Positions 20,003 to 39,368 of a DNA stretch of 64,000 nucleotides are shown one piece after another. The notes below the pieces were generated by a model. It was not told the origin of the DNA and did no database searches. It saw nothing but the letters and a program-made list of their open reading frames with translations. The translations under genes were made by a program, and so were the position numbers. Origin of the DNA: Hydrogenophaga sp. BPS33 (GTDB lineage Bacteria; Pseudomonadota; Gammaproteobacteria; Burkholderiales; Burkholderiaceae_C); the NCBI RefSeq assembly GCF_009859475.1, contig NZ_CP044551.1, positions 42,880 to 106,879 on the forward strand, in the 5' to 3' direction. Every line of letters starts with the position of its first letter. The first letter of the stretch is position 1.

Positions 20003-20028
20003 TCACGAACCCAACCGGAGAACCAATC

Positions 20029-21122: not shown

Positions 21123-21131
21123 ATGGATAAG

Positions 21132-24100
21132 GGGGTCTCCTCGTTTTCAGTGCAATAAGTGACGGTACGCAAAGCTAGCACTGGCGCGGGGGTGGTCTGG
21201 GTAGACCGTTGATTTCATTGACTTTCCTGTTCGCTTTGTAAACGGGTATGGTGGCCTCCCACTTTTGAGGTTCACGATGCAGGGTTGGCACACAACGTTT
21301 TTGGGGATGCGTGGGCTCCCCCGCGATATCAGCGACTTCGAGATGAAGGCATTTTTCACCTTCGATGGTGCCGAGCGCGACGCAATCAATGCACGCCGAG
21401 GTGATTCCCACAAGCTTGGTCTGGCGCTCCATATTGGTTTCCTGCGCATGAGTGGGCGTTTGCTCGGTGCCTTTCGGGTAATTCCAGTAGCCTTGTGGCG
21501 CCACCTTGGCAACGAGCTTGGCATTGCAGCACCAGAAGTCGCCTCGCTGAGAGCCATGTATGAACGCGGGCGCACGCTATTCGATCACCAACAAGTAGCC
21601 TGCACGGTCCTTGGATTCCAGTGGATGAGCGAGCACCAGCGCCGCTCACTGGTACGTGAACTGCGCGACGAAGTGGCGCGCTGCGCCGACCGCGATCAGC
21701 TACTCGTGCGGGCGCGTCAATGGCTGTACAAGAACAAGCTGGTGATCGTGCACGAGCGGGCAATTCGGACACTGATTGCGGCGGCACTTGCCCAGCTTGA
21801 AGTTGAAACAGGCACCGCCATCGCCGCCAGCGTTGATCCAGCAACACTTGATCGCTGGCGAGCCTCAGTTTCAGAGCTGCGCCCAGATGGACAAACCCAG
21901 CAGAGTTGGCTATGGGCTGCACCGGCGAAACACTCAACCCGCCAAATCAGCGAGGTACTGGAGCGCATCGACCTGCTTTACACGCTGGACGTTCATAAGC
22001 ACCTGGCAGACATCCCCGATCTCATCTTGCGCCGCTACGCGCGCCGACTTGTCTCCAGGCCGCCCTCAGCCGGAGCCAAGATCAAAGAGCCAGCGCGCAC
22101 CGTGGAGGTCGCATGCTTTCTTCGGTATTGCCTGTTCACCACCACAGACCAGTTGATCCTTATGGTGCAGCGCCGGATCGCCGATCTGTGGCGTCAGGCT
22201 GCCGCCGATGTCCCCGCTACCGTCAATTGGGCCGCAATGTACAAAACGCTGCTCGGCGAACTTGTTGCCTTGAGCGCGCAAGGTGCGGTGCCAGATGCTG
22301 AGTTGCGTGCCCGTCTTGAAGCCTTGATCACCGAAACCCAGAAACGCAAACCACCGAGCAGGGCCTCCCTGGTCCGCGAGGGATTGATTGATGGAATTCG
22401 CCCCGTGCGGTCGTTGCTCGTCGCCATTGCAAAGCTGCCCTGGCAGGCCACCGGCGAGCATCCTGCCATCGAGTACCTTGCCAAGCTGCAAGCTTTATAT
22501 CTCAAAGGATCCAGAAAGCTGCCAGTTGAAGTGGTGGCACCAAGTCTGGGAATGATCTGGCAGGTTTCGATCTCCAGCCCAGACCGGGAACGGGCGTTTC
22601 AGGCGTTGGAGGTGGCCACCCTGTTTGCCCTGCGCCGCGCGGTGCGCAATGGCTCGGTCTGGATTGAGCACAGCCTGAGCTTTCGGGGTCGTGCGCGCTT
22701 GTTCTTCACGGACGAGCGTTGGCAGGCAGAGTCCAAGAAACACTATGCCCGTCTATCGTTACCCAGCAAGGCTGCCACTTTCTTGAAGCCTTTGCTGGCC
22801 AGAGTAACTGCCGGTGTCGATGCGGTGGCCGCTGCAGCCCGCAGTGGCGTACTGCGCGTGGATGATGAACTCCATTTGTCGCCATTGCCCGCAGAGGACG
22901 AAGACCCAGAAGTGACCAAGCTGCGCGCGGCTTTGGATCACCGCATCGGTGAGGTTCAATTGCCGGAAGTGATTCTGGCCGTTGACGCCCAGGTGCGCTT
23001 TAGCTGGATCATGCTCGGACGTGAGCCGCGCTCTACCGACGAGCTGCTGATGGTCTATGCCGGCATCATGGCCCACGGCACCAGTCTGACTGCGGTCGAA
23101 TGCGCGCGCATGATTCCGCAATTGTCTGCCACCAGCATTCGCCAGGCCATGCGCTGGGCGCGGGACGAACGGCGTCTGAGCCAGGCCTGCCAGGCTGTGC
23201 TGGAATTCATGCAGCGACACCCGATTGCCGCCACCTGGGGGCGGTCCGATTTGGCATCTTCTGACATGATGAGCATGGAGACCACCAAACGGGTGTGGCA
23301 AGCCCGGCTTGATCCTCGGCGCAACACACCTTCCATTGGAATCTACTCCCATGTAAAAGACCGGTGGGGCATCTTCCATGCGCAGCCCTTTGTGCTCAAT
23401 GAGCGCCAGGCGGGCGTGGCCATTGAAGGTGTCATCCGCCAAGAAAAGCTGGAGACCAGCCAGCTTGCTGTGGATACCCATGGCTACACCGACTTTGCCA
23501 TGTCACATGCCCGTTTGCTTGGTTTTGATCTTTGCCCGCGGTTGAAGGAACTCAAACAGCGCCACCTCTTTGTGCCACGCGGCACCAAAGTGCCCGCAGA
23601 AATCGCTGCGGTGTGCGAAGCCAATGTCGACGTCGCTTTGATCGAAAAGCATTGGGATAGTCTGGTGCACCTGGCAGCCTCGGTCATGAGCGGACATGCC
23701 AGTGCGGTGGCAGCTCTTGCGCGGTTCGGTTCTGCCGCCCAGGGCGATCCAATCTATGAGGCTGGCGTGCAATTGGGGCGGTTGCTGCGTACGGCGTTTT
23801 TGGCTGACTACTTTGTCAAGGACGCTTTCAGGAACGAGTTGCGCCGGGTGCTCAATCGGGGCGAGGCTGTTAACGCCCTCAAGCGCGCCATTTATACCGG
23901 CCGGATCAGCCCGGCGCAGGCCAAACGTGTCGATGAAATGCAGGCTGTGGCCGATGCGTTGAGCCTGATGGCCAACATCGTGATGGCGTGGAATACCTCA
24001 CAGATGCAGGCGGTCCTGGATCGCTGGTCGAACCGCCGCCAGGTCATTCCACCGGAACTGATCGGGAAGATTGCGCCCACCAGGCTGGAGAGCATCAACT

Positions 24101-24335
24101 TGCGGGGTGTGTTTCGCTTCCCGGTTGACCGCTATGCTGACCAAATCCTGCCTTCGCGGCCAAATGCATCGATAACTGGCACCAATGGATGAAACCGACC
24201 ACGGTTTGACGCCACGAATCGCAGATTTGAAAGTGAACAGGAAAGTCAATGAAATCAACGATCTACCAACACCACCTCCGCGCCAGTGCTAGCTTTTCGT
24301 ACCGTCACTTATTGCACTGAAAACGAGGAGACCCC
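21132..24335 (+). mobile_element. IS1071 copy C, complete (3204 bp)
   Basis: Full-length element with both long inverted repeats (outer 38 bp almost identical, imperfect to about 105-110 bp) and an intact transposase. The left flank is ATAAG (IncP-1 origin DNA) and the right flank GCTTC (alphaproteobacterial ICE DNA). The lack of a 5-bp duplication shows that the flanks were not joined by a simple insertion of this copy. Confidence 0.96.
21265..24192 (+). CDS. tnpA: IS1071 transposase TnpA, intact
   Basis: A 975-residue Tn3-family transposase. The N-terminal DNA-binding part begins MQGWHTTFLGMRGLPRDISD, and the C-terminal DDE catalytic part has the blocks noted for copy A. The start ATG follows TTTTGAGGTTCACG. 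Unlike typical Tn3 elements there is no resolvase gene in the element, as known for IS1071. A private change, Ser for Thr in DMMSMETT, marks this copy. Confidence 0.95.
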   Translation: MRFTMQGWHTTFLGMRGLPRDISDFEMKAFFTFDGAERDAINARRGDSHKLGLALHIGFLRMSGRLLGAFRVIPVALWRHLGNELGIAAPEVASLRAMYERGRTLFDHQQVACTVLGFQWMSEHQRRSLVRELRDEVARCADRDQLLVRARQWLYKNKLVIVHERAIRTLIAAALAQLEVETGTAIAASVDPATLDRWRASVSELRPDGQTQQSWLWAAPAKHSTRQISEVLERIDLLYTLDVHKHLADIPDLILRRYARRLVSRPPSAGAKIKEPARTVEVACFLRYCLFTTTDQLILMVQRRIADLWRQAAADVPATVNWAAMYKTLLGELVALSAQGAVPDAELRARLEALITETQKRKPPSRASLVREGLIDGIRPVRSLLVAIAKLPWQATGEHPAIEYLAKLQALYLKGSRKLPVEVVAPSLGMIWQVSISSPDRERAFQALEVATLFALRRAVRNGSVWIEHSLSFRGRARLFFTDERWQAESKKHYARLSLPSKAATFLKPLLARVTAGVDAVAAAARSGVLRVDDELHLSPLPAEDEDPEVTKLRAALDHRIGEVQLPEVILAVDAQVRFSWIMLGREPRSTDELLMVYAGIMAHGTSLTAVECARMIPQLSATSIRQAMRWARDERRLSQACQAVLEFMQRHPIAATWGRSDLASSDMMSMETTKRVWQARLDPRRNTPSIGIYSHVKDRWGIFHAQPFVLNERQAGVAIEGVIRQEKLETSQLAVDTHGYTDFAMSHARLLGFDLCPRLKELKQRHLFVPRGTKVPAEIAAVCEANVDVALIEKHWDSLVHLAASVMSGHASAVAALARFGSAAQGDPIYEAGVQLGRLLRTAFLADYFVKDAFRNELRRVLNRGEAVNALKRAIYTGRISPAQAKRVDEMQAVADALSLMANIVMAWNTSQMQAVLDRWSNRRQVIPPELIGKIAPTRLESINLRGVFRFPVDRYADQILPSRPNASITGTNG

Positions 24336-24343
24336 GCTTCACG

Positions 24344-24418: not shown

Positions 24419-24437
24419 GGGGGCGCCGAGGCTAGCT

Positions 24438-25064
24438 TCACGGTTGCGATTCAGCCGAAGCGAACGATTCCGTGCTGAGCGGCACGAAGAGTGTCGGGGA
24501 ACCCGCTCGATCGCTGGTCTTGCCGGATGGCGCCGATCGCAGGGCGAAGAAGATCGGGTTCACCGGCACCGTTTGCATTGAGTCTGGCCGCTGCGCGGTC
24601 ACACCGCCCACCGACGCGAGATAGGCACGCGTCTCGCCGGGAAGCGTTCGGCCCGTCGCGAGATGCTCGGCGTAACGCGCGGGCCCGGCATTATAGGCCC
24701 CGAACAGCCCGGGATAGCCGAACCGGTCGTACATCAACCGCAGATAGGCAGCGCCCGCGACAATGTTGTCGTGTGGGTCGTGCGGATCAGCTCCAAGTCG
24801 AAGCGCCGCACGCACCTGTGCCCATGTGCCGGGCATGAGCTGCATCAGGCCCATCGCACCGGCCCGGCTGGTGATCGGCCGCCCATTCAAAATCGTCTTT
24901 CCGGCGCTCTCGGCGCGCATGACGCGTTCGATCCATGCCGCCGGGATGCCTGACCGGGCCGATGCTTCATCGATATAGGGACGCCAACGCTCGACCAGTT
25001 CCGCATGCGCCGACGTTGCTACCAGCAGCGCTAGCGCGATGGCGAGCGATCTCAGCGCGCCCAC
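24438..25064 (-). CDS. Exported lytic transglycosylase (SLT domain) of an ICE transfer module
   Basis: 208 residues with a signal peptide (LRSLAIALALLVATSAHA) and an SLT domain: catalytic glutamate in VMRAESAGK, then GAMGLMQLMPGTW and FGAYNAGPARYAEH. Such enzymes open the peptidoglycan for a conjugative type IV secretion system. It starts at a GTG (25064) inside the end of the traF-like gene, so the two are coupled. The order excisionase-like HTH, TraF, transglycosylase matches alphaproteobacterial ICEs, including the rdfS-traF region of the Mesorhizobium symbiosis island. Confidence 0.85.
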   Translation of the reverse strand: MGALRSLAIALALLVATSAHAELVERWRPYIDEASARSGIPAAWIERVMRAESAGKTILNGRPITSRAGAMGLMQLMPGTWAQVRAALRLGADPHDPHDNIVAGAAYLRLMYDRFGYPGLFGAYNAGPARYAEHLATGRTLPGETRAYLASVGGVTAQRPDSMQTVPVNPIFFALRSAPSGKTSDRAGSPTLFVPLSTESFASAESQP

Positions 25065-25627
25065 AGCAAGGTTGCTTTGCCGACGATATCGCCGCGGTCC
25101 GTTGGACCGAAATAGCGCCCGTCGAACGAGGCGGGGCTATCGGCCATCAGCAGCAACATCGCCCCGCGCCGGAGCGTGATGCAGCCGGTCCACCACGGCA
25201 TCGGGCGGCCCGCGCCATCGCGGATCAGGCGGTTCGCGATCCAGCGGCCATCGACGAATATCTCCTGCCCGAGCGCGCAAACGGTATCACCAGGTTCGGC
25301 CGCGACGCGCTTCACCAGCGGCACGTTGGCGGGCAGATAGTGCCGGCGCGCGGCGAAATCGCGGGCAGGAGCTGGCGGCCAGGCGATGACCATATCGCCG
25401 GTCGCGAGATCGGTCCCCCCGACACGGTAGAGCCCGATCGGTGCGCTCGCGCTGGCATTCCAGACAAGGAAGGGGCGCGGCGGGAGCGCGATCGTGGCGG
25501 CGAGCGCGGCCGCGAGCCCACCAAGGGCGAGGCCGCGGCGCGCAAAGCGCCGCCGCCGCGATCGGGCGAAGCGAAGGCTCTGGCCCCAGCGCGCGAGCGC
25601 GGCAGCCGCGGTGTGGCGCTCAATCAC
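25052..25627 (-). CDS. traF: TraF-type S26 signal peptidase of conjugation
   Basis: 191 residues from the GTG at 25627. It has one N-terminal transmembrane segment (GLALGGLAAALAATIALPP) followed by an S26 peptidase domain: NASASAPIGLYRV with the catalytic serine, and PLVKRVAAEPGDTVC with the catalytic lysine. TraF peptidases process the conjugative pilin. The start overlaps the upstream HTH gene by 8 bp, which decides for this GTG over the longer in-frame extension through that gene. Confidence 0.85.
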   Translation of the reverse strand: MIERHTAAAALARWGQSLRFARSRRRRFARRGLALGGLAAALAATIALPPRPFLVWNASASAPIGLYRVGGTDLATGDMVIAWPPAPARDFAARRHYLPANVPLVKRVAAEPGDTVCALGQEIFVDGRWIANRLIRDGAGRPMPWWTGCITLRRGAMLLLMADSPASFDGRYFGPTDRGDIVGKATLLWAR

Positions 25628-25850
25628 GATCGCGCTCCCCGCGGGCGCCCAGCGACCAGCAATCGAGATCGTCGATATGATAGCGGACATGGCGGCAATG
25701 GCGCCGGAAGCGCGGACCGGTGCCGGCGCTGCGATGTTCCTGGAGCGTCCGCACCGAAACGCCAAGATAGTGTGCGGCCTGTTCGGGGCTCAAGAAAGGG
25801 GAGCCGCGCAGTGCGAGGCCCGCGCGGGCGACTTGATCATCGTCGTTCAT
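25620..25850 (-). CDS. Small MerR/excisionase-like HTH protein (RdfS-like)
   Basis: 76 residues with a winged helix-turn-helix of the AlpA/Xis type: SPFLSPEQAAHYLGVSVRTL then QEHRSAGTGPRFRRHCRHVR with YHIDDLDCW. In the Mesorhizobium ICE the equivalent gene just upstream of traF is rdfS, the recombination directionality factor that drives excision. Position and size suggest the same job; the proof would be an attachment site and integrase, which are not in the window. Confidence 0.65.
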   Translation of the reverse strand: MNDDDQVARAGLALRGSPFLSPEQAAHYLGVSVRTLQEHRSAGTGPRFRRHCRHVRYHIDDLDCWSLGARGERDRD

Positions 25851-25927
25851 GGCTTCGATCCAAATGTATCGCGCCGCGACGCGCGGCGGGTGGATCGGGT
25901 GATGCCGACGGATCGCGCGCGCGGGGA

Positions 25928-25958
25928 GTGTCGAAAACCGGCACTCGCATTTCGACAC
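25928..25958. promoter_or_regulatory. Inverted repeat upstream of the excisionase-like gene
   Basis: GTGTCGAAA (25928-25936) and TTTCGACAC (25950-25958), perfect 9-bp arms with a 13-bp spacer, in a 233-bp gene-free stretch. It is a candidate binding site for the DUF2285 activator that is expected to switch on the excision and transfer genes. Confidence 0.5.
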
Positions 25959-26036
25959 ACCCGGGTGAGAGGGCAGGGTGCCGACGGGGCGGCGCAGACC
26001 CGCCCGAAGCGCGAGGCGCCAAATTAAACTTTGGGC

Positions 26037-26303
26037 TTAACCAGCCTGTTCGGATTTCCGGCCGAACGCCTCCAGTGCGGAACCAAGCCCCTCACCGACG
26101 ATCCAGTGGGCGCGGGCAAGATGGCTTTCCCAGCACTTTCGCGCGGTCTCGCCATCGGCCGCGACGTCGAGGCCGAGGATCAGTCGTGCTCCTTCGGCCC
26201 AGCCCATGCCGGCAGCGTCGGCGTCGAGCAACTCGGCGTAAATCGGAAGGGTTTGCCGATCATAGCCCGTTACCTGACCACTTGGCGCGACATTCCGCAG
26301 CAC
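26037..26303 (-). CDS. DUF2285-type antiactivator (QseM-like)
   Basis: 88 residues if started at the GTG at 26303, which has GGAG six bases upstream; a TTG at 26315 would add four residues. The core AELLDADAAGMGWAEGARLI, LGLDV and CWESHLARAHWIVGEG is the C-terminal DUF2285 pattern (HLARAxW). In the Mesorhizobium ICE a small DUF2285 protein, QseM, binds and blocks TraR and FseA, and is encoded divergently from the XRE-type repressor gene qseC. The same divergent pair is seen here. Confidence 0.65.
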   Translation of the reverse strand: MLRNVAPSGQVTGYDRQTLPIYAELLDADAAGMGWAEGARLILGLDVAADGETARKCWESHLARAHWIVGEGLGSALEAFGRKSEQAG

Positions 26304-26389
26304 AAGAAACTCCAAATGTGGTGTTTGCTCATCAATTTGGAGACCTTACGCCATGGCTAAAAGGCCCGCAAGCGGGCTCAACATCGCTT
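26304..26389. promoter_or_regulatory. Divergent operator region between QseM-like and QseC-like genes
   Basis: An 86-bp divergent control region. CCAAAT (26312-26317) and ATTTGG (26334-26339) form an inverted repeat, and GGCCCGC-AA-GCGGGCT (about 26362-26377) forms a second one near the XRE start. It should carry both promoters and the binding sites of the XRE regulator. Confidence 0.5.
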
Positions 26390-26623
26390 ATGTCGAGCCG
26401 GAAGACTCTTGCCCACAATTTGCGCGTTCTACGTGCCGCGAGAGGCTTGTCACAGGAAGCGCTGGCAGATGCCGCGATGGTCGATCGAACTTACATCAGC
26501 GCTCTCGAACGTCAGAAGTATAGTGTCACTATCGACCGGCTCGATGAGATCGCAAAACCTCTCGGCATCGAAACCTACGTCCTGCTGATGAACGACCTTC
26601 CGCCAGAAGTCCTGAAGAATTAG
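26390..26623 (+). CDS. XRE-family regulator (QseC-like)
   Basis: A 77-residue single-domain Cro/CI-type helix-turn-helix: HNLRVLRAARGLSQEALADA then AMVDRTYISALERQKYSVTI. The start ATG at 26390 is chosen because the much longer upstream frame is only a shadow of minus-strand genes. It is the only plus-strand gene in the ICE fragment. By context it is the counterpart of QseC, which sets the on/off state of quorum-sensing control by repressing the antiactivator gene. Confidence 0.75.
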   Translation: MSSRKTLAHNLRVLRAARGLSQEALADAAMVDRTYISALERQKYSVTIDRLDEIAKPLGIETYVLLMNDLPPEVLKN

Positions 26624-26631
26624 CCGTCGGG

Positions 26632-27379
26632 TCACCAGGTCAGGATCGGCAGCGGTCCCTGCCTGACCAAGCTTTCACCCATTGCGACCAACCGGCGTAT
26701 GGCGGACTTGCGGTATTCTCCCGGCCCAGGCCATTCGCCGCCCTCCAACAGTTCGGTCGCGATTTCCCTGAGGGATGCGCCATCCGCGCGGGCATCGCGC
26801 GCGCGCAGCGCCGTGGCCGATCGTATTACCCTGGAAGCCCTCTCGACCGCGCTAGGTTCAGTTCCCGCAAGTCTATGCTCAAGTCGCCGGATAGTGTCCA
26901 TCTGCTGGGCTAGCCGCCCATCCTGTGCGAGCAGGTAGGTCAGGTGGACGGGACCTGACATTACGGTCCCCGAGACAACATCCAGGCGAAATATCTCGCC
27001 ATGGGCGATGAAGCGGACGTGCTCGCCATCCGCATCCGGGAGGATGCGCGAATCGAAGCGGCGAATGTCCGTGGCATCGAGCCGGGTCGTCGCTCTCGCC
27101 CCGACCAACAGCACGCGCGCATCGACGTCCGCTCTCCACATGGGTGCCGCGTGGACGCAATCGAGCTCCGGATTCTCAGGGAAAGTGCAGCCCCCATTCG
27201 CCCGCGGAGCCGGGCTCGCCTGCGGGTATCTCCGCGGTCAACGCGCTGGCCGCGGCAAATCGCCAATAAGCAGAATTCCGGCGCAGTACTTCCCAGGCAA
27301 GTGCATCGCGGCCCAGCGCCGGGATGGCATCATAGGCCGCCCGGTCGCGCCAGTCCGGCAGATGCGCGGTCCCGCTCAC
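26632..27379 (-). CDS. DUF6499-DUF2285 activator (FseA-like), apparently made by +1 frameshifting
   Basis: Frame 1 starts at the GTG at 27379 and encodes 67 residues of a DUF6499 domain (PDWRDRAAYDAI, LAWEVLRRNSAYWRF, GEWGLHFP), ending CAC TTT CCC TGA (stop at 27176-27178). If the ribosome slips +1 at CCC, the next frame continues PENPELDCVHAAPMWRADVD and the DUF2285 domain (ALRARDARADGASLREIATE) to the stop at 26632, giving about 248 residues. In the Mesorhizobium ICE the same two domains (Msi172/Msi171) are fused by +1 frameshifting into FseA, the activator of excision. Without slippage only the short protein is made, unless translation restarts at 27141. It lies 8 bp after phyH. Confidence 0.72.
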
Positions 27380-27387
27380 GGCGTTCG

Positions 27388-28254
27388 TCAGCCCATCTCG
27401 CCCATCTGGGAGCGGATGAACATCTCGGCCGCTTCGGCCTGGTCGGGCCGCAGCGCGTCGATCGACGGCAGATGGTCCGGCACTCTGTCTCGCAACAGGA
27501 TCGAGGGGCATTGGCCCTCGACATTGCCGAGGTTGGGGCGGTGCTGGGCGTAGCCGACGAGCGCAGCCAGTTCCGGCGAGAAGTGGCGCGCTACCTGTGG
27601 TGGGTAGACTAGCCATTGCAGCTCGAAGGGTTTCAGCCAGCCGAGGCAGTAGCTGATGACGATGCCGCGCCGAGGCGCCGCGCTGGCATTGCCGCCACCG
27701 CCATGCAGGGTGGAGCCGAGGAAGATCAGGGCGTCGCCCGGCGACACCGTTGGCACGACCACGTCCTCTTCGGCAAGCACCGGAATGTCCTGCTCGAGGT
27801 GGCTTCCCGTCCAGATTCGCGTGCCGCCGTTCTCCCGCGTGAAGGTGGTCAACGGCCACATTACGTTGACGAGATATTCGAGGCTGCCTTTGGGCCCTTG
27901 CCACATGTCCTGGTCGCGGTGCGGCAGCTGGGGCAGAGCACCGGGGTGGATCTCGATGGCCTGGGTCAGATTGAGCGCGATCCGCTCGCACCATGGCAGG
28001 AGCATCTGCTCGACGATCTCCAGGATCAGCGGATGCCTCGCCAGGCGTTCGATCGCCGACGAGCGGGTCAGCAGCGATCCGAAACGCTTCGTCCTGTCGC
28101 CGTAGAATGCCCCTTGGCATAGCGGTGTCGCAGCGAAGCGAGGGTTCAGATCCGCCTCGATGCCAGCGATCAGGGCAGGCTCGACGCCGCGCCCGAACAC
28201 GCACCAGCCATCGCGCGCGAGCATCGCGGCGTGGCGATCGACGGCGGCGCTCAT
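27388..28254 (-). CDS. Phytanoyl-CoA dioxygenase (PhyH) family protein linked to luxI
   Basis: 288 residues of the Fe(II)/2-oxoglutarate-dependent PhyH family. The facial triad is visible: H112 and D114 in LPHRDQDMW and the distal H184 in STLHGGGGN, followed by the 2-oxoglutarate-binding Arg in APRRG. The ATG overlaps the luxI stop (ATGA, 28251-28254), so the protein is made together with the autoinducer synthase. A PhyH gene next to luxI is, to my knowledge, a recurring feature of sphingomonads. The substrate is unknown; modification of the signal or its precursor is a plausible but unproven role. Confidence 0.8.
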   Translation of the reverse strand: MSAAVDRHAAMLARDGWCVFGRGVEPALIAGIEADLNPRFAATPLCQGAFYGDRTKRFGSLLTRSSAIERLARHPLILEIVEQMLLPWCERIALNLTQAIEIHPGALPQLPHRDQDMWQGPKGSLEYLVNVMWPLTTFTRENGGTRIWTGSHLEQDIPVLAEEDVVVPTVSPGDALIFLGSTLHGGGGNASAAPRRGIVISYCLGWLKPFELQWLVYPPQVARHFSPELAALVGYAQHRPNLGNVEGQCPSILLRDRVPDHLPSIDALRPDQAEAAEMFIRSQMGEMG

Positions 28255-28856
28255 GCCGACACCCGATCGGCAGCATCGGCATAGACACCCGTCCAGCGAA
28301 GCCGCTCGGGCGTGTCCGGACGGACATGGATGAGGAAGGCGCCGATCGCTCCGCCTGGGAGATGCACGGCGGGCCCGAGCGGCTCGGCCTGCCAGCCCAT
28401 CGCGAGGACTTCCTTGCGGAACGGATCGGGGATGAGGCCAGTCAAGCGCTCGATCCCGCGCTCCAGCGCAAAATCTACGACTGCCGAGAACAGCATGTTG
28501 CGCAGTTTGAGTCTCCGGGCAGCACCGTGTCGCTGGGGCAGACATAGCCGCGTGGTTTCCCAGGTCGTATTGCCCACGGGGACCCCGAATGGGCAGAGAT
28601 TAGAAAAGAGCGTACCAAGCATGTGCGGATGGGTACTGGGAAAGAGCCGGATAGAGGCTTGATGCTCACCGCGTGCGTCAGAGACGATGAAATAGACAGT
28701 ATGAGCATTGTCGAACTGGTCGATCTCGTACTGGTCATCGACCACCGGGACATCCCAACCGAACAGGTCGACGAAAAGACGCTTGCGGTCGGCGAACATC
28801 GAACAAAGCAGCGGCTGGCTGTCCGCTGCCAAATCATTTTCGATAACATGGATCAT
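28251..28856 (-). CDS. luxI: Acyl-homoserine-lactone synthase (LuxI/TraI family)
   Basis: 201 residues with the conserved LuxI positions R24, F28, W34 (FADRKRLFVDLFGWDVP), the D/E pair in DDQYEIDQF, R70 in QASIRLFPS, and E100/R103 in TTWETTRLCLP. It makes an N-acyl-homoserine lactone from S-adenosylmethionine and acyl-ACP. It is downstream of luxR in the same direction, 73 bp apart, and heads the luxI-phyH-activator run. Chain length of the signal cannot be predicted here. Confidence 0.88.
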   Translation of the reverse strand: MIHVIENDLAADSQPLLCSMFADRKRLFVDLFGWDVPVVDDQYEIDQFDNAHTVYFIVSDARGEHQASIRLFPSTHPHMLGTLFSNLCPFGVPVGNTTWETTRLCLPQRHGAARRLKLRNMLFSAVVDFALERGIERLTGLIPDPFRKEVLAMGWQAEPLGPAVHLPGGAIGAFLIHVRPDTPERLRWTGVYADAADRVSA

Positions 28857-28929
28857 AGAGGTTTCTCCCGGCATAGACCTGTCGTGCCGGAAGAGAGCAG
28901 CGATGAGCGGCCCGAAATAGACCGAGTGA

Positions 28930-29715
28930 TTACTCGGGTTGACGAGCCCTCAGCTCGTCCAGACCGATTTCCCCGGCAAGCACGGCGCTCACGACGAGCT
29001 CGGTGCGGTCTTGCGCGCCAAACAGGCGGCGCGCTTCGGTCAGATAGCCATCAACCGTGCGAGGCGTGAGAGCTAGCGCGCGGGCAATCTCCTTATTGGA
29101 ATATCCGCGTCCCGCCAGAATGACACAATCACGCGGGCGCGGGTGCAGTCTCGGCCGGCATGGGACAGTCGGCAACTCCCCGCAGAGCAGCCGGCGGGCC
29201 GCCTGGAAAGCAAAGACACCGATCATCTGCGCAGCACCGAGGAACAACTGCGCACGCTCGGGGCGGCACATTCCTGCGAATGTACAGGAACCCATACGCT
29301 CGCCGAGCCGGACATGCGGCACCGTGATGCCTTCGTTCAGCCCCTCTTGTGCGCCACGTTCCAGGCTCGTGCGATCCTGCTGGTCCAGGCGAATGATCCG
29401 AGGCAGGTCGGACCAGAGGAATGCACTGTCGGCAAAGATGCATCCGCGGATAACGGGATCGCGCCTGAAGCGACGCTGGGTCACGAGCCGCTCCATGATC
29501 GCTGGCGGATAGTCCCTTAAATCGACACGGTCGGGTCGCGGCGTCCGCAGGTCGTCGTGATGCACCAGCGCGTAATGCCGGAAGCCCATCTCGCGGACGA
29601 CCGCCTCCATCAAGGTGACAAGTTCATCCCGCGATGACGTCGCCCGAAGGACTTCGACAACGGTGCTGGTCAGCTCAAGGCAGAACGGTCTGCTGGGCCG
29701 TGCGTCAGACTGCAT
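28930..29715 (-). CDS. luxR: LuxR-family quorum-sensing regulator
   Basis: 261 residues: an N-terminal autoinducer-binding domain (about 20-170, with RHYALVHHDD and RRDPVIRGC) and a C-terminal LuxR-type helix-turn-helix (RDCVILAGRGYSNKEIARAL then ALTPRTVDGYLTEARRLFGA). It should bind the lactone made by the neighbouring LuxI and act on the luxI promoter in 28857-28929, where I see no clear lux box. It corresponds to TraR of ICE circuits by context. Confidence 0.87.
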   Translation of the reverse strand: MQSDARPSRPFCLELTSTVVEVLRATSSRDELVTLMEAVVREMGFRHYALVHHDDLRTPRPDRVDLRDYPPAIMERLVTQRRFRRDPVIRGCIFADSAFLWSDLPRIIRLDQQDRTSLERGAQEGLNEGITVPHVRLGERMGSCTFAGMCRPERAQLFLGAAQMIGVFAFQAARRLLCGELPTVPCRPRLHPRPRDCVILAGRGYSNKEIARALALTPRTVDGYLTEARRLFGAQDRTELVVSAVLAGEIGLDELRARQPE

Positions 29716-29871
29716 TCATTCATGCCTCGTCCCCCTGCTGGACCGATTGCAACAGATTCCCCGACGTTCAGATGACGCGACGTTCCGCCACTTGAAGCTC
29801 AAGATTCCCCGCTTCGTCAGGTTTTCATTGGCTGTGGGCGTGATAGCGGGCCCGTCATCTCGACGCCCCAC

Positions 29872-31626
29872 TCATTTCGCCGGCTCGCCAACATCGGCCC
29901 GATAGACCAGCTCGCCCTCAATGAAGGTCATGTCCACTCGCGTCTCGTGGATCTTCGTGGGCGGGACGGCAAACGGGTTTTGATTGGTGACGATAATGTC
30001 AGCGAGCATTCCCGGAACGATGCGCCCCACCTTGTTTCCCATTCCTTCCTGCCGTGCCGAATTTTCGGTGAAGATGCGGAATGCCTGCTCAAAGCTGATC
30101 GCCTCGGATTTGCCAAAGCTATCCGCGCTGCCACCGGACCTTTGGCGCGTAACCAACTGCTCCAGGCCTATCCAGGGATTGACCGACGGGACAACCGACC
30201 AGTCGGAGCCCGGCACGACCAAGGCATCGGCCTCCAGCATTTCGCGCACCGGCCAAACCCGCTCGATCGTTTCCGGCCCCACCGCCTTGGTGATGTCGTC
30301 GTTGATCGGAGTGGGACCCCAGAGATAAGGGGAAACCTCGAAGGTCGCACCGATCGCTCGTGCCCGCTTGATGTCCCCGGGAGCAACGAATACATTATGT
30401 CCGACATTGTGCATATTGGGCGTAAAACCATTGGCCTTGCGGGCAGCCTCGATGGCGTTGAGCCCTTCACGCACCGCGGCATCTCCCGCTGCGTGGAACT
30501 TCACTGTTAGCCCCTGCCTGTCGAAATCGGCAACCGCCTTGTCGAGGACATCTTGCTGTATCAGCAACAGACCCATGCGGCTGGCTTCATCGTTGCGCCC
30601 ACCAACTCCGCCCGCATAGGGCTCCAGCATGCCGGCTGTATGACTATCAGTCGGAACACCATCGAGAAAGATCTTGACGCAATCGGCCGCCAGTCGATTC
30701 CGCGAATAAATGTTGCGAGATGCAATCGCCGACAGGGTCGAAGGGACGCCCGGCGCCCACGTGATGCACAAGCGCACCCTTTGCTTCAGCTGACCAGCAT
30801 CGGCGATAGCGGCATAGGTCGCAAGCTCGGTTGCCCCTCCGGCGGTGAAGCCGACAGCGGCTTCGGTAAAGGAGGTGATGCCGAACGACAGCATCTGCTG
30901 CAGCGACCATCTAAGGCCAGCTTCTGCCTGCGCCAACGTCGGCTTGGGGGTGATGCGCGAGATGACATCGACGGCGGACTCCCTTTGCACGCCGCTCGGC
31001 ACGCCATCAGCATCGCGCTCGAAGATGCCGCCAGGAGGGTTGGGAGTCTCTTTGGTGACACCAGCCAGCTTCAGCACCTGGCTGTTCACCCAATTGCTGT
31101 GGCCGCTGGTGTCCTCCAGATAGACTGGATTGTTGGGTGCCACCTTGTCGAGCATGGCTCGGTTGGGGATCTTGCCCAGTGCCGAAGCATCCCATTGACC
31201 GCCGATGATCCAGTCTCCCGGCTTGGCTTTGTCGACACAGGCCCTTACGAGGTTGAGCGTCCGTTCGAGGTTCGACCCCTGCGGAATCTTGCACTGTGCC
31301 TCGCGCACCCCGGCATAAATGGGATGCACGTGCAGATCGTGCAGCCCAGGCAATACGGTGCGGCCACCCAGATCAATGGTCCGGGTGCCGTCTTTTCGTA
31401 GCCTGGCGACCTCTTCCGAAGATCCGACCGCGATGATCACCCCTTCATGGACCGCCAGCGCTTCCGCCCATCCATCTGGTGTTTTGACGTGTCCGTTTGC
31501 CAGAATCAGGTCCGGACCGGATGATGTGGCAGTGTCCAACAGAGGCGCCGGCGCGCCACGGGCGGGCTCGACGATCATCATGGCGGCGAGCAGCGAATGA
31601 GCAAATATGGCCCTATGCATCGGCAT
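29872..31626 (-). CDS. Exported YtcJ-like amidohydrolase (Amidohydrolase_3 family)
   Basis: 584 residues with a probable signal peptide (AIFAHSLLAAMMIVEPARGA), a metal-binding H-x-H in LHDLHVHP near residue 98, a carboxylated-lysine/metal region, and the C-terminal VGRIVPGMLADIIVTNQNPF typical of urease-superfamily metal hydrolases. Relatives include N-substituted formamide deformylase and many enzymes of unknown substrate. It is complete, and its start lies 62 bp from the junction with the truncated tdnQ copy. Whether it feeds amines to the aniline pathway is speculation. 29716-29871 contains no gene. Confidence 0.78.
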   Translation of the reverse strand: MPMHRAIFAHSLLAAMMIVEPARGAPAPLLDTATSSGPDLILANGHVKTPDGWAEALAVHEGVIIAVGSSEEVARLRKDGTRTIDLGGRTVLPGLHDLHVHPIYAGVREAQCKIPQGSNLERTLNLVRACVDKAKPGDWIIGGQWDASALGKIPNRAMLDKVAPNNPVYLEDTSGHSNWVNSQVLKLAGVTKETPNPPGGIFERDADGVPSGVQRESAVDVISRITPKPTLAQAEAGLRWSLQQMLSFGITSFTEAAVGFTAGGATELATYAAIADAGQLKQRVRLCITWAPGVPSTLSAIASRNIYSRNRLAADCVKIFLDGVPTDSHTAGMLEPYAGGVGGRNDEASRMGLLLIQQDVLDKAVADFDRQGLTVKFHAAGDAAVREGLNAIEAARKANGFTPNMHNVGHNVFVAPGDIKRARAIGATFEVSPYLWGPTPINDDITKAVGPETIERVWPVREMLEADALVVPGSDWSVVPSVNPWIGLEQLVTRQRSGGSADSFGKSEAISFEQAFRIFTENSARQEGMGNKVGRIVPGMLADIIVTNQNPFAVPPTKIHETRVDMTFIEGELVYRADVGEPAK

Positions 31627-31688
31627 CTCCCTGGCGCCTTGGTTGAAATGAAATGGAATGATCGCGCGAGGCTAATGCGGCAGGCGCT

Positions 31689-32437
31689 TCCAGGCCGGGC
31701 ATCACGTCGAAGGTGGTCTCCATCTGGCTCGGCGCCCACTCGTCCTCGATGCTGCGCAGGGGCATCCCCAGGGCCAACAGGTGCTGGCGCACCTCGGCCA
31801 TGATGGGCTCGACCTCGTCCAGGTGGTTCTCCAGCAGGTACGAATACCCTTTGGCCACCGGCATCACCTTGGGAGGCGCCGCAGGCGTTCCGGGGCCGCC
31901 AAGGGTTTCGGGCTCCAGGCAGGGATCGACGATGCGCGTCAGATACCACTCGACCTCGAGGCCGGCCTGGTAGTCGTAGCCCAGGTCCTGCATCTCGGCC
32001 AGCGCCTTTTTCAGGATGGCGCGCGGACTCAACGCGAACGGGCGCCCACTGGTCATGTAAAGGTCGGCCAGCATCCAGCCGGTGCGATCCGCCCAGGGCA
32101 GGATGCGAAACGTGGTGGGGTCCGGGACCATCACGACGTTCGGGCTGCCGGCCAGTTCGGCGCTGCCGAGGCCCCCGTCGGCAGAGAAAGGGTTGAATAC
32201 GATGGCGCTGGCGGTATCGAAAAAGAACGGCGCCATCGTGATCTCCGAGCCGCTGGCGAATGCCGACTTGAGCGCGGCGACCGACAGCATTTTTCCGCGC
32301 AGCAGTCCGTACTGATCCGGCCAAGACAACCGAACCATCTGCAGCCCCGCTTTCTCAATTTTATTCAGGACGTCTGCTGCTGCGGCTTTCTGGGTATCCG
32401 ACCAGATGCCGTGCTTTTCAATGAATTTCCCGCTCAT
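31689..32437 (-). pseudogene. tdnQ: tdnQ second copy, 3'-truncated
   Basis: 249 codons identical to the N-terminal half of the intact tdnQ except for two changes (Asn to Ser and Phe to Ile). The homology stops at 31689 in TCCAGGCCGGG, and the frame runs on for 25 unrelated residues to a stop at 31613. The C-terminal catalytic half (SGWHLHQSL and RVENRIGEP blocks) is missing, so the product cannot be active. The junction joins this repeat to the amidohydrolase region without an IS at the break. Confidence 0.88.
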
Positions 32438-35063: not shown

Positions 35064-35139
35064 ACGGCATGCCGCACCGCAAGCCGAGCCCCAACGCCGA
35101 TGCACCAACCGTTCCACCTCTCTCGCTTCAACCAGAACC

Positions 35140-35955
35140 ATGAGCCCCCGTGACCTTCCTCCAGCGACGCTGACCGAACCGATCAAGATCGCCGTCCTGG
35201 CGATGGGTGGCGAAGGCGGTGGCGTGCTTGCCGACTGGATCGTCGACCTCGGCGAAGCCAATGGCTGGTTCGCCCAGACCACCTCCGTGCCCGGAGTCGC
35301 GCAGCGCACCGGTGCGACGATCTACTACGTGGAATTGTTCCCTGGCGCCGACGTTCCAGGAGCGCGGGCGCCCGTGCTCGCCCAGGCGCCACTGCCCGGG
35401 GATGTGGACATCGTGCTGGCCTCCGAGCTCATGGAAGCCGGCCGGGCCGTCCAGCGGGGCTTCGTGACGTCGCACAACACGACGCTGATCACTTCCACGC
35501 ACCGCGTCTACTCGATCGCCGAGAAATCGGCGATGGGTGACGGCCGGGTCGACAGCGCCGCTCTCCTGCGACAGGCCGGACGGGCGGCCAGGCGCTTCAT
35601 CAGCTTCGACATGGCCGAGGCCGCCGAGCGCACCGGCAGCGTGCTCAGTGCGGTCCTGTTCGGCGCCCTGAGCGGCTCGGGGGTGCTGCCGTTCAGCTGC
35701 AAGCAGTTCGAAGAGACCATCGAACGCGGTGGTGTCGGTGTCAAGCCCAGCCTCAAGGCCTTCGACTTGGGCCAGGCCGAAGCGCGCAAGGCCGATACCG
35801 ACGCGCCCCCATCCAAGCCGCGTGCGCCGCAGTCCGCCGCCGCCGATGTTCAGCCGAGCCACCCCGCCGTGGCCCGCCTGGTCGCGCGCGCACTCCAACT
35901 GCCCGCCAGCGTGCGCGGCACCGCCGTCGAGGGGGTCCGCCGTCTCGTGGACTAG
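35140..35955 (+). CDS. iorB: Indolepyruvate:ferredoxin oxidoreductase beta-like protein, second copy, truncated at IS1071
   Basis: 271 residues, identical to 9629-10444 including the TAG stop completed by the first G of IS1071 D. That both copies carry the same truncation shows that the cut preceded the duplication. Confidence 0.75.
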   Translation: MSPRDLPPATLTEPIKIAVLAMGGEGGGVLADWIVDLGEANGWFAQTTSVPGVAQRTGATIYYVELFPGADVPGARAPVLAQAPLPGDVDIVLASELMEAGRAVQRGFVTSHNTTLITSTHRVYSIAEKSAMGDGRVDSAALLRQAGRAARRFISFDMAEAAERTGSVLSAVLFGALSGSGVLPFSCKQFEETIERGGVGVKPSLKAFDLGQAEARKADTDAPPSKPRAPQSAAADVQPSHPAVARLVARALQLPASVRGTAVEGVRRLVD

Positions 35956-38900
35956 GGGTCTCCTCGTTTTCAGTGCAATAAGTGACGGTACGCAAAGCTA
36001 GCACTGGCGCGGGGGTGGTCTGGGTAGACCGTTGATTTCATTGACTTTCCTGTTCGCTTTGTAAACGGGTATGGTGGCCTCCCACTTTTGAGGTTCACGA
36101 TGCAGGGTTGGCACACAACGTTTTTGGGGATGCGTGGGCTCCCCCGCGATATCAGCGACTTCGAGATGAAGGCATTTTTCACCTTCGATGGTGCCGAGCG
36201 CGACGCAATCAATGCACGCCGAGGTGATTCCCACAAGCTTGGTCTGGCGCTCCATATTGGTTTCCTGCGCATGAGTGGGCGTTTGCTCGGTGCCTTTCGG
36301 GTAATTCCAGTAGCCTTGTGGCGCCACCTTGGCAACGAGCTTGGCATTGCAGCACCAGAAGTCGCCTCGCTGAGAGCCATGTATGAACGCGGGCGCACGC
36401 TATTCGATCACCAACAAGTAGCCTGCACGGTCCTTGGATTCCAGTGGATGAGCGAGCACCAGCGCCGCTCACTGGTACGTGAACTGCGCGACGAAGTGGC
36501 GCGCTGCGCCGACCGCGATCAGCTACTCGTGCGGGCGCGTCAATGGCTGTACAAGAACAAGCTGGTGATCGTGCACGAGCGGGCAATTCGGACACTGATT
36601 GCGGCGGCACTTGCCCAGCTTGAAGTTGAAACAGGCACCGCCATCGCCGCCAGCGTTGATCCAGCAACACTTGATCGCTGGCGAGCCTCAGTTTCAGAGC
36701 TGCGCCCAGATGGACAAACCCAGCAGAGTTGGCTATGGGCTGCACCGGCGAAACACTCAACCCGCCAAATCAGCGAGGTACTGGAGCGCATCGACCTGCT
36801 TTACACGCTGGACGTTCATAAGCACCTGGCAGACATCCCCGATCTCATCTTGCGCCGCTACGCGCGCCGACTTGTCTCCAGGCCGCCCTCAGCCGGAGCC
36901 AAGATCAAAGAGCCAGCGCGCACCGTGGAGGTCGCATGCTTTCTTCGGTATTGCCTGTTCACCACCACAGACCAGTTGATCCTTATGGTGCAGCGCCGGA
37001 TCGCCGATCTGTGGCGTCAGGCTGCCGCCGATGTCCCCGCTACCGTCAATTGGGCCGCAATGTACAAAACGCTGCTCGGCGAACTTGTTGCCTTGAGCGC
37101 GCAAGGTGCGGTGCCAGATGCTGAGTTGCGTGCCCGTCTTGAAGCCTTGATCACCGAAACCCAGAAACGCAAACCACCGAGCAGGGCCTCCCTGGTCCGC
37201 GAGGGATTGATTGATGGAATTCGCCCCGTGCGGTCGTTGCTCGTCGCCATTGCAAAGCTGCCCTGGCAGGCCACCGGCGAGCATCCTGCCATCGAGTACC
37301 TTGCCAAGCTGCAAGCTTTATATCTCAAAGGATCCAGAAAGCTGCCAGTTGAAGTGGTGGCACCAAGTCTGGGAATGATCTGGCAGGTTTCGATCTCCAG
37401 CCCAGACCGGGAACGGGCGTTTCAGGCGTTGGAGGTGGCCACCCTGTTTGCCCTGCGCCGCGCGGTGCGCAATGGCTCGGTCTGGATTGAGCACAGCCTG
37501 AGCTTTCGGGGTCGTGCGCGCTTGTTCTTCACGGACGAGCGTTGGCAGGCAGAGTCCAAGAAACACTATGCCCGTCTATCGTTACCCAGCAAGGCTGCCA
37601 CTTTCTTGAAGCCTTTGCTGGCCAGAGTAACTGCCGGTGTCGATGCGGTGGCCGCTGCAGCCCGCAGTGGCGTACTGCGCGTGGATGATGAACTCCATTT
37701 GTCGCCATTGCCCGCAGAGGACGAAGACCCAGAAGTGACCAAGCTGCGCGCGGCTTTGGATCACCGCATCGGTGAGGTTCAATTGCCGGAAGTGATTCTG
37801 GCCGTTGACGCCCAGGTGCGCTTTAGCTGGATCATGCTCGGACGTGAGCCGCGCTCTACCGACGAGCTGCTGATGGTCTATGCCGGCATCATGGCCCACG
37901 GCACCAGTCTGACTGCGGTCGAATGCGCGCGCATGATTCCGCAATTGTCTGCCACCAGCATTCGCCAGGCCATGCGCTGGGCGCGGGACGAACGGCGTCT
38001 GAGCCAGGCCTGCCAGGCTGTGCTGGAATTCATGCAGCGACACCCGATTGCCGCCACCTGGGGGCGGTCCGATTTGGCATCTTCTGACATGATGACCATG
38101 GAGACCACCAAACGGGTGTGGCAAGCCCGGCTTGATCCTCGGCGCAACACACCTTCCATTGGAATCTACTCCCATGTAAAAGACCGGTGGGGCATCTTCC
38201 ATGCGCAGCCCTTTGTGCTCAATGAGCGCCAGGCGGGCGTGGCCATTGAAGGTGTCATCCGCCAAGAAAAGCTGGAGACCAGCCAGCTTGCTGTGGATAC
38301 CCATGGCTACACCGACTTTGCCATGTCACATGCCCGTTTGCTTGGTTTTGATCTTTGCCCGCGGTTGAAGGAACTCAAACAGCGCCACCTCTTTGTGCCA
38401 CGCGGCACCAAAGTGCCCGCAGAAATCGCTGCGGTGTGCGAAGCCAATGTCGACGTCGCTTTGATCGAAAAGCATTGGGATAGTCTGGTGCACCTGGCAG
38501 CCTCGGTCATGAGCGGACATGCCAGTGCGGTGGCAGCTCTTGCGCGGTTCGGTTCTGCCGCCCAGGGCGATCCAATCTATGAGGCTGGCGTGCAATTGGG
38601 GCGGTTGCTGCGTACGGCGTTTTTGGCTGACTACTTTGTCAAGGACGCTTTCAGGAACGAGTTGCGCCGGGTGCTCAATCGGGGCGAGGCTGTTAACGCC
38701 CTCAAGCGCGCCATTTATACCGGCCGGATCAGCCCGGCGCAGGCCAAACGTGTCGATGAAATGCAGGCTGTGGCCGATGCGTTGAGCCTGATGGCCAACA
38801 TCGTGATGGCGTGGAATACCTCACAGATGCAGGCGGTCCTGGATCGCTGGTCGAACCGCCGCCAGGTCATTCCACCGGAACTGATCGGGAAGATTGCGCC

Positions 38901-39158
38901 CACCAGGCTGGAGAGCATCAACTTGCGGGGTGTGTTTCGCTTCCCGGTTGACCGCTATGCTGACCAAATCCTGCCTTCGCGGCCAAATGCATCGATAACT
39001 GGCACCAATGGATGAAACCGACCACGGTTTGACGCCACGAATCGCAGATTTGAAAGTGAACAGGAAAGTCAATGAAATCAACGATCTACCAACACCACCT
39101 CCGCGCCAGTGCTAGCTTTTCGTACCGTCACTTATTGCACTGAAAACGAGGAGACCCC
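35955..39158 (+). mobile_element. IS1071 copy D, complete (3204 bp)
   Basis: Complete, with intact ends and transposase. The left flank is GACTA (iorB) and the right flank TTTCA (inside trbM), so there is no target duplication. Its right end marks the border between cargo and the VirB-type transfer region. Confidence 0.96.
36088..39015 (+). CDS. tnpA: IS1071 transposase TnpA, intact
   Basis: 975 residues, intact Tn3-family DDE transposase. It carries the majority residues at the sites where copies B and C have private changes, so it represents the standard sequence of this molecule. Confidence 0.95.
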   Translation: MRFTMQGWHTTFLGMRGLPRDISDFEMKAFFTFDGAERDAINARRGDSHKLGLALHIGFLRMSGRLLGAFRVIPVALWRHLGNELGIAAPEVASLRAMYERGRTLFDHQQVACTVLGFQWMSEHQRRSLVRELRDEVARCADRDQLLVRARQWLYKNKLVIVHERAIRTLIAAALAQLEVETGTAIAASVDPATLDRWRASVSELRPDGQTQQSWLWAAPAKHSTRQISEVLERIDLLYTLDVHKHLADIPDLILRRYARRLVSRPPSAGAKIKEPARTVEVACFLRYCLFTTTDQLILMVQRRIADLWRQAAADVPATVNWAAMYKTLLGELVALSAQGAVPDAELRARLEALITETQKRKPPSRASLVREGLIDGIRPVRSLLVAIAKLPWQATGEHPAIEYLAKLQALYLKGSRKLPVEVVAPSLGMIWQVSISSPDRERAFQALEVATLFALRRAVRNGSVWIEHSLSFRGRARLFFTDERWQAESKKHYARLSLPSKAATFLKPLLARVTAGVDAVAAAARSGVLRVDDELHLSPLPAEDEDPEVTKLRAALDHRIGEVQLPEVILAVDAQVRFSWIMLGREPRSTDELLMVYAGIMAHGTSLTAVECARMIPQLSATSIRQAMRWARDERRLSQACQAVLEFMQRHPIAATWGRSDLASSDMMTMETTKRVWQARLDPRRNTPSIGIYSHVKDRWGIFHAQPFVLNERQAGVAIEGVIRQEKLETSQLAVDTHGYTDFAMSHARLLGFDLCPRLKELKQRHLFVPRGTKVPAEIAAVCEANVDVALIEKHWDSLVHLAASVMSGHASAVAALARFGSAAQGDPIYEAGVQLGRLLRTAFLADYFVKDAFRNELRRVLNRGEAVNALKRAIYTGRISPAQAKRVDEMQAVADALSLMANIVMAWNTSQMQAVLDRWSNRRQVIPPELIGKIAPTRLESINLRGVFRFPVDRYADQILPSRPNASITGTNG

Positions 39159-39368
39159 TTTCAGCGTGTCCGACAGCTTCTTGTGACTGATCGAGAAGTA
39201 CCGCTTCAACGACGGAGCGCACTCGCTCGGCCGCGTGCCCGAAGACAAGCACAAGACGGCTTCGCACGCGAGGCGCACGTCGCCAGTGAAAAGGCCATCG
39301 TCGGCCTGGGCCGCCGTGGCGCTGAACATGCCCGCGAGCGCGAGCGGCAAAAGGGCGAGCTTCTTCAT
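39159..39368 (-). pseudogene. trbM: TrbM-like protein, 5' part, truncated by IS1071 D
   Basis: 70 codons from the ATG at 39368: a signal peptide (MKKLALLPLALAGMFSATAAQA) and the start of the mature TrbM domain, LACEAVLCLSSGTRPSECAP then SLKRYFSI. The IS1071 right end follows codon 70. TrbM proteins are around 190 residues, so most is lost. In RP4 trbM is not essential for transfer under laboratory conditions. Confidence 0.8.

Follow-up and report, generated by a model that had tools for sequence, protein, structure and literature searches.

What is a quorum-sensing block, with a dioxygenase gene between the signal synthase and a DUF6499/DUF2285 activator, doing on a plasmid of Hydrogenophaga sp. 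BPS33, and where did it come from? We addressed this in a stretch of 64,000 nucleotides (the window, by which we mean this whole stretch), which covers positions 42880–106879 of a 106,879-bp plasmid contig. The circuit is an FseA/QseM transfer switch, of the type found in the integrative and conjugative element (ICE) ICEMlSymR7A of Mesorhizobium japonicum R7A, with a LuxI-linked dioxygenase; we did not find this variant described, its parts having been published separately. It is a real, conserved circuit and not a curiosity of one window. The block itself is, with little doubt, the quorum-sensing control region of a sphingomonad ICE, stranded on a betaproteobacterial-type, PromA-type catabolic plasmid. 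From 29715 downwards on the minus strand its genes run luxR, luxI, phyH, the DUF6499/DUF2285 activator, a qseM-like gene, an rdfS-like gene, traF and a transglycosylase gene; an XRE gene between the activator and the qseM-like gene is the only plus-strand member. The XRE, qseM-like, rdfS-like, traF and transglycosylase genes all lie outside (left of) 26632–29715. The features, with E-values of profile matches in brackets, are:

28930..29715, minus strand: luxR, TraR-like receptor (Pfam Autoind_bind 1.3e-21, GerE 1.8e-7)
28922..28937, no strand: lux-box-like dyad CCGAGT-N4-ACTCGG, overlapping the luxR stop, upstream of luxI (similar dyad in relatives)
28251..28874, minus strand: luxI, acyl-homoserine lactone synthase (Pfam Autoind_synth 8.7e-18, 64.9 bits against a cut-off of 24)
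27388..28254, minus strand: phyH, Fe(II)/2-oxoglutarate dioxygenase (Pfam PhyH 7.2e-21)
26632..27379, minus strand: fseA-type activator, DUF6499 (27379–27176) and DUF2285, joined by a predicted +1 frameshift (PF20109 1.1e-13, PF10074 1.3e-9)
27176..27196, minus strand: predicted frameshift site TGGGGG CTG CAC TTT CCC TGA (from frames and motif)
26318..26623, plus strand: XRE regulator, qseC-like, divergent from qseM (HTH_3 3e-13 on 26390–26623; 306-bp coding sequence in record L002)
26037..26315, minus strand: candidate qseM-like lone DUF2285 antiactivator (20-row profile against 7UQT; annotated DUF2285 protein in L002)
25928..25958, no strand: FseA-box-like inverted repeat upstream of rdfS (GTCGAA-N15-TTCGAC)
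25620..25850, minus strand (open frame 25620–25958): putative rdfS-like gene, excisionase-type helix-turn-helix (HTH) (HTH_17 1.5e-9)
25052..25765, minus strand: traF, conjugative signal peptidase (Peptidase_S26 3.3e-20; TIGR02771 2.5e-22, under that model's cut-off)
24438..25064, minus strand: lytic transglycosylase (SLT 1.5e-16)

Scans of the whole window for tRNA and Rfam families returned no matches. The luxR, luxI and PhyH genes named by a first-pass annotation of this DNA, and the ATGA overlap that luxI and phyH share, were confirmed by Pfam and by the coordinates, and the divergent XRE regulator, antiactivator, excisionase-like HTH, TraF peptidase and transglycosylase that it listed are all present, with the QseM and rdfS calls weaker for the window proteins alone. 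The two profiles on which that annotation hinged both match the activator above cut-off, DUF6499 (PF20109) with 51.8 bits against 23.8 and DUF2285 (PF10074), in the C-terminal part, with 39 bits against 26.4. It had also correctly placed the activator, which starts at GTG 27379, 8 bases past the phyH stop, but had overlooked the +1 frameshift. The gene consists of two overlapping frames: the DUF6499 frame ends at TGA 27178–27176, DUF2285 is open in the +1 frame, and reading across the shift gives a joined activator protein of 248 residues. Frames were compared in the window and in 37 loci with DUF2285 behind phyH, leaving out seven without a tblastn match to the short DUF6499 part; DUF2285 lies in the +1 frame relative to DUF6499 in 31/31 rows having both parts (the window and 30 loci, among them L006, which is a copy of the window block and is also counted in the 37). 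A sequencing error or a pseudogene as the cause of the split is ruled out by this shared shift. The motif TGGGG-N-[C/T]T-N-CAC-TTT was found in the shift region of 31 of the 38 rows, the pattern not being matched in L007, L019, L021, L030, L033, L053 and L068. The UGGGGG/WGL site in FseA was described by Jowsey et al. (2023, PMC10359603), with a +1 frameshift at a conserved UGGGGG site in about 61% of FseA homologues. The FseA DUF2285 profile also matches RovC (6xz5, 1.8e-4), while phmmer with the joined FseA against solved structures gave one chance match only, and NCBIfam gave no match for PhyH or for the three DUF6499/DUF2285 pieces. Judged by its sequence, the activator belongs to the FseA family, with a predicted frameshift site.

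The antiactivator profile built from 20 rows, the window protein included, matches 7UQT, the solved QseM, at 2.4e-13, which makes the qseM-like gene a candidate QseM-type antiactivator, less securely so when the window protein is taken alone. Counting against the assignment, the window protein by itself has no Pfam match, PF10074 is weakly matched by 4/20 antiactivator rows (best 0.011), and hhalign of the antiactivator against the FseA DUF2285 gave a weak probability of 4.7. The DUF2285 domains of QseM and FseA of R7A share only 18% identity (PMC10359603). In net charge the window qseM-like protein stands at −5 against +4 for the C-terminal 95 residues of FseA, and in 36/36 loci the last 95 residues of the FseA match are less acidic than the antiactivator segment. 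The rdfS-like gene, adjacent to traF, matches HTH_17 above cut-off and the excisionase model TIGR01764 below it (0.0002, 21.6 bits against 28.8), and is a putative excisionase gene heading the traF operon, again an assignment that is weaker on the window protein alone. Upstream of it, GTGTCGAAAACCGGCACTCGCATTTCGACAC at 25928–25958 holds inverted hexamers spaced 15 bp, and the published FseA-box geometry is inverted hexamers 15–16 bp apart upstream of rdfS (PMC10359603). The form GTCG-N17..20-CGAC occurs in 14/18 rdfS upstreams (shuffles: mean 0.36, maximum 3), those of L023, L027, L036 and L068 being without it; the repeat is a candidate FseA-box-like element and a putative FseA site. At the other end of the circuit, the dyad CCGAGTAATCACTCGG overlaps the luxR stop ~60 bp before luxI (55–62 bp in many relatives) and is exact or near-exact at the same position in one group of relatives, a second group having CCCGGAATTCCGGG.

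The likeness to the ICEMlSymR7A circuit (TraR-TraI1-FseA-QseC-QseM-RdfS) that the annotation had drawn holds across a LuxR/LuxI pair, a DUF6499 and DUF2285 activator with a +1 frameshift at UGGGGG, a lone acidic DUF2285 antiactivator with its QseM profile, an XRE gene, the FseA-box-like inverted repeat before rdfS, and the rdfS-traF order. In ICEMlSymR7A it is QseC, an XRE regulator, that controls QseM. Unlike that element, the block has a dioxygenase gene between luxI and fseA, is of sphingomonad origin, and is truncated and plasmid-borne; R7A is not known to have a phyH between traI1 and fseA.

How widespread is the arrangement? A scan of genome contigs with PhyH was taken to the best 80 of 89 confirmed loci, and the DUF2285 part lies behind phyH within 1.5 kb in 37/80 of them (L006 included). 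This recurrence of the same order argues that the gene order in the window is not due to chance, and it rules out the combination as a one-off. Since a scan started from PhyH is biased toward PhyH, we drew 298 genomes of one sphingomonad family (that of Novosphingobium flavum, L009), including two (G001, the genome of L009, and G002) already known to carry the order. DUF6499 was found in at least 103 of these genomes, LuxI in 91 (119 sites) and PhyH in 93 at 1e-25, and PhyH lies within 3 kb of LuxI at 86/119 LuxI sites. DUF6499 lies within 4.5 kb of at least 35 of the 119; sites with a weak DUF6499 may be missed, and site counts that involve FseA therefore hold among the matches listed. PhyH is also present at 33 of these 35 sites, 13 of them ordered as in the window and 20 having FseA upstream or in divergent orientation, compared with 53/84 LuxI sites without FseA (Fisher p 0.0003, with related genomes non-independent). 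With PhyH at nearly all FseA-near LuxI sites and FseA on either side, luxI-phyH is a stable unit, and the earlier picture of a dioxygenase wedged between synthase and activator had to be given up: it is PhyH that stays with luxI and FseA that changes place. Conversely, among PhyH matches with at least 45% identity, 87/92 have a LuxI within 3 kb (one G009 locus counted twice). The remaining five comprise L148 and L149, with luxR-phyH beside fseA, L150, with luxR-phyH, L151, without a luxR match, and a partial match in G146. Of the two FseA-near LuxI sites without a full PhyH, L158 keeps a phyH remnant, and the other is L157.

The relatives bear the marks of ICEs. Of the 13 sites of the window's order, 9 have matches to a TraG-type coupling protein and to TrbE/VirB4 on their contig, no more than 70 kb away, and at least eight of those nine have a tyrosine integrase within 80 kb (among the matches listed); G019 would be a tenth site if its contig is circular, and G002, G152 and G246 have no TraG or TrbE/VirB4 matches nearby. 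Thus luxI-phyH is not confined to places far from ICE transfer genes. In a PhyH tree of 56 rows, rooted at its midpoint only, a branch with support 99/93 sets apart a group of 37 rows, made up of every row with FseA downstream (36) and L036. Several sphingomonad families and an Acidiphilium are intermingled in this group, the pattern that a mobile module should give. In L036 (8001–10331), phyH is followed directly by rdfS-traF-transglycosylase, with no activator match detected.

In the same tree the window PhyH has a short branch and sits within the sphingomonad rows. At the DNA level, continuous similarity to sphingomonad loci reaches 29686, stopping before the neighbouring hylA-like gene, and beyond it there are only two short matches, to the L007 amidohydrolase, at 30987–31224. 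On the other side the block stops at IS1071, 102 bp beyond the transglycosylase gene. The end of the similarity, the nested PhyH and the flanking IS1071 copies point to a piece of a sphingomonad ICE captured by IS1071. The LuxI match of the window is the only one in the host genome. Among TraG-type matches, the genome has a single full one, which belongs to the plasmid itself (C3:86632-88095), and one weak partial match on C2; no other PF10074 match was found, hence no second DUF2285 activator in the genome. The TraG and PF10074 results together argue for a stranded control region and not a working ICE. A same-element integrase, relaxase, type IV secretion system and attachment sites, as an intact ICE would have, do not accompany the block, which ends at IS1071 (no integrase search was made elsewhere in the genome). 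The sphingomonad version of the circuit that had been proposed is right as to the DNA, which is sphingomonad-derived, but the block sits stranded in a betaproteobacterial-type plasmid between IS1071 copies and not in a working ICE. Its surroundings are:

21129..24335, plus strand: IS1071 copy, left border of the block (identical repeats, inverted ends; transposase at the same place in L002)
29872..31626, minus strand: amidohydrolase, neighbour outside the switch (layout as for hylA; 99–100% identity in four plasmid records)
31613–32437: truncated glutamine-synthetase-like (dcaQ-like) gene, abutting the amidohydrolase
35948..39161, plus strand: IS1071 copy, right border of the cassette (same repeat evidence; L002)

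The 40–58 kb transfer region of the window is 100% identical to Hydrogenophaga PBL-H3 and to Variovorax records from linuron-contaminated soil, and the quorum-sensing block (24200–31700) is 99.9–100% identical in four plasmid records. From strain names and layout we infer that the matching records are the PromA plasmids of PMC7039861, a paper whose text, by a word search, contains neither quorum nor luxI nor LuxR. We rejected the block as a component of the plasmid's transfer machinery: the 40–58 kb region is covered to at least 80% in 15 records, and the quorum-sensing block to that extent in 4 only. The amidohydrolase is probably the linuron hydrolase HylA, judging by layout and strain names, since the hylA position and the dcaQ junction layout are described in PMC7039861 and PMC5911999. 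Arrival of hylA in the same ICE segment was likewise rejected, because the similarity ends at 29686 and a similar amidohydrolase stands near luxR in one of the 80 loci (L007) besides L006, a count limited by the shortness of many of these loci. In L007 (Sphingobium nicotianae) this protein, at 3961–5658 on the minus strand, is 50% identical to the window amidohydrolase and lies near luxR in the opposite orientation, possibly by chance. The window holds four IS1071 copies (1–1373, partial at the window edge; 10437–13652; 21129–24335; 35948–39161), recombination sites able to shuffle cargo. Between IS1071 copies, 14189–20560 carries IncP-like maintenance genes (ParB, ParA, KorA, Kle, KorC, antirestriction, RelB/YafQ, by the annotation of L002), and a glutamine-synthetase-like/oxidoreductase block occurs twice, at 5448–10444 and 31613–35955, the first gene of the second copy being the one truncated at the amidohydrolase junction.

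What, then, might the dioxygenase contribute? Aligned to PrhA, residues H112, D114, H184 and R195 are invariant in 56/56 PhyH rows, and we take them to be the metal triad (HxD...H) and the 2-oxoglutarate arginine; with these residues invariant, an active oxygenase is expected. The predicted model has a pLDDT (predicted local distance difference test) of 83.7, and the nearest solved relatives by sequence and predicted fold are PrhA, AndA and SptF, with AusE also among the best matches, all presumably natural-product tailoring oxygenases; phytanoyl-CoA hydroxylase is not among the best-matching solved chains. In the 33 loci where all five proteins occur, PhyH shows the strongest conservation (mean distance 0.30), and pairwise distances correlate with r 0.93 for LuxI-PhyH, 0.87 for LuxI-LuxR and 0.58 for DUF2285-PhyH. 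The natural reading of phyH staying by luxI while FseA changes sides is that PhyH is part of signal production, and loci with luxR-phyH-fseA and no luxI suggest that it may act on lactone of any source. That PhyH is a signal-tailoring enzyme is, from these data, an evenly balanced call. In Mesorhizobium there is a precedent: an unusual lactone requires a crotonase gene that lies behind luxI (Suo et al. 2023, PMC10470506).

We hold with moderate confidence that a conjugation switch with a dioxygenase-tailored signal, stranded here, is the best explanation of the locus. Gene content, frames, motifs, order, conservation and location are read from the DNA, while regulation, the PhyH substrate and present-day activity are proposed on that footing. 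LuxR with an acyl-homoserine lactone would bind the dyad at the luxR/luxI border and activate luxI-phyH-fseA as a single operon with coupled translation; LuxI would make the lactone, and PhyH would oxidise the acyl precursor or the finished lactone to a signal preferred by the partner LuxR. A +1 ribosomal frameshift at UGGGGG CUG CAC UUU C would give full-length FseA, which would bind the inverted repeat before rdfS and turn on rdfS-traF-transglycosylase for excision and transfer, and QseM, under XRE control, would block FseA and probably LuxR. With the rest of the ICE gone, the window circuit could yield nothing beyond signal and the three products that are left. A bolder form of this explanation, which we offer tentatively and consider on the whole unlikely (the lactone data of Gan et al. 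2016, below, lower its odds slightly), is that LuxI and PhyH make an undescribed oxidised lactone required by the partner LuxR, a three-gene private channel of sphingomonad mobile elements by which the ICE would count its own kind before the FseA frameshift; the luxI-less L148, L149 and L163 would then be eavesdroppers that convert host or neighbour lactone into their own ligand.

Several observations weigh against a tailored signal driving this switch. In the 71 loci with luxR, luxI and phyH, the LuxI-LuxR correlation (0.92) exceeds that of LuxI-PhyH (0.88), and linked genes co-vary anyway, which limits the weight of any LuxI-PhyH correlation. Among the LuxI sites counted above, the 53/84 with PhyH and no FseA, and the 31 with neither, stand apart from the switch. 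The luxI upstream dyad is only modestly above shuffles (18/30 score at least 6, against 20% of shuffles), and the best-scoring inverted repeat of the window's luxI upstream is another one. L157 (6562–8342) has luxI and then a split activator without phyH, a Mesorhizobium-like order, and luxR-phyH stands beside a divergent DUF6499/DUF2285 activator with no luxI in L148 (4638–7860), L149 (5730–8513) and L163 (6033–8797, its PhyH a 39% match), loci found through PhyH, so that their number is a biased rate. The genome of L157 (G157) also carries the phyH version, and L148, L149 and L163 are possible receptor-only ICE switches. Gan et al. (2016, PMC5012321) expressed three NovI from novR-novI-phyH loci, apparently without phyH, in Agrobacterium and obtained common lactones (C8, 3-OH-C8 and 3-OH-C10 being the major ones), which explained the wild-type spots; their lactone detection was targeted to standards, and they noted that the reaction of bacterial PhyH was yet to be described. 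Overexpression of novI in wild-type Rr2-17 gave nine common lactones and two uncharacterised signals (PMC11674143); phyH did not turn up in a word search of that paper.

The same facts can be set within other explanations. If PhyH were a quorum-controlled metabolic or host-adaptation enzyme, co-transcribed and not acting on the signal, luxI-phyH at 53 LuxI sites without FseA (among the matches listed), common lactones from related LuxI apparently without phyH (PMC5012321) and the breadth of the PhyH enzyme family would all follow easily; we nevertheless consider this rather unlikely, as 87/92 close PhyH matches lie within 3 kb of LuxI and PhyH stays while FseA moves from side to side. A role in destroying or damping the signal, with a quorum-induced oxygenase inactivating the lactone or its precursor and so limiting the time or number of donors, would suit a strongly conserved phyH in the same operon, would give a further brake to a circuit that already has several (PMC10359603), and would make removers of incoming signal of the luxR-phyH-fseA loci without luxI. 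It seems improbable to us, given that a degrading enzyme has no obvious need to track LuxI (r 0.93, 33 loci) and that the closest solved relatives of PhyH tailor their substrates and do not degrade them. Less probable still, and in our view very unlikely, is that the module now regulates the adjoining hylA and was recruited for linuron degradation, a question raised by Albers et al. (2018): in Variovorax WDL1, luxR/luxI transcripts were higher in consortium and the module was confined to the linuron-hydrolysing subpopulation (PMC5911999), and the module accompanies the amidohydrolase gene in four near-identical copies, but the transcript rise was judged not to exceed the increase in cell share (PMC5911999), the module is an ICE switch with conserved targets of its own, and continuous sphingomonad similarity ends before hylA. 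The preferred explanation thus remains the stranded conjugation switch with a tailored signal, at the confidence given above.

Parts of this system have been reported. The luxI-phyH synteny was published by Gan et al. 2013–2016 (PMC3704786, PMC4288048, PMC5012321), and such loci, with phyH behind luxI and linked conjugation genes, are also seen on pSLPG of Sphingobium SYK-6; the pSLPG stretch differs in having no FseA/QseM/RdfS in its annotated part, and its PhyH is 56–58% identical to that of the window. The R1-I1-crotonase circuit of M. japonicum MAFF 303099 (Suo et al. 2023, PMC10470506) resembles the window in a dedicated enzyme gene directly behind luxI and an unusual lactone, and differs in using a crotonase, not a 2-oxoglutarate oxygenase, with no tie to FseA reported in the text available. 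The hylA-adjacent luxR/luxI of Variovorax WDL1 (Albers et al. 2018, PMC5911999) is the same locus as in the window (99.9% DNA identity), and was described as a putative quorum-sensing circuit, the available text not containing 'phytanoyl' and naming no FseA, QseM or ICE origin. The first-pass annotation had known of no description of the combination, which stands for the joining of luxI-phyH to FseA/QseM, of which no account was found among open-licence papers (one paper on phyH and integrative and conjugative elements is actinobacterial by title), but not for the luxI-phyH pairing, already in print.

One conserved circuit thereby brings together two separate lines of published work: luxI-phyH pairing in sphingomonads, so far without an explanation, and the FseA/QseM switch of rhizobial ICEs. 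Natural variants without phyH (L157) or without luxI (L148, L149 and L163) make the PhyH reaction clearly testable. For Variovorax, the quorum genes next to the linuron hydrolase gene take on another aspect: they resemble the transfer trigger of a sphingomonad mobile element, stranded there, and not a dedicated regulator of hylA.

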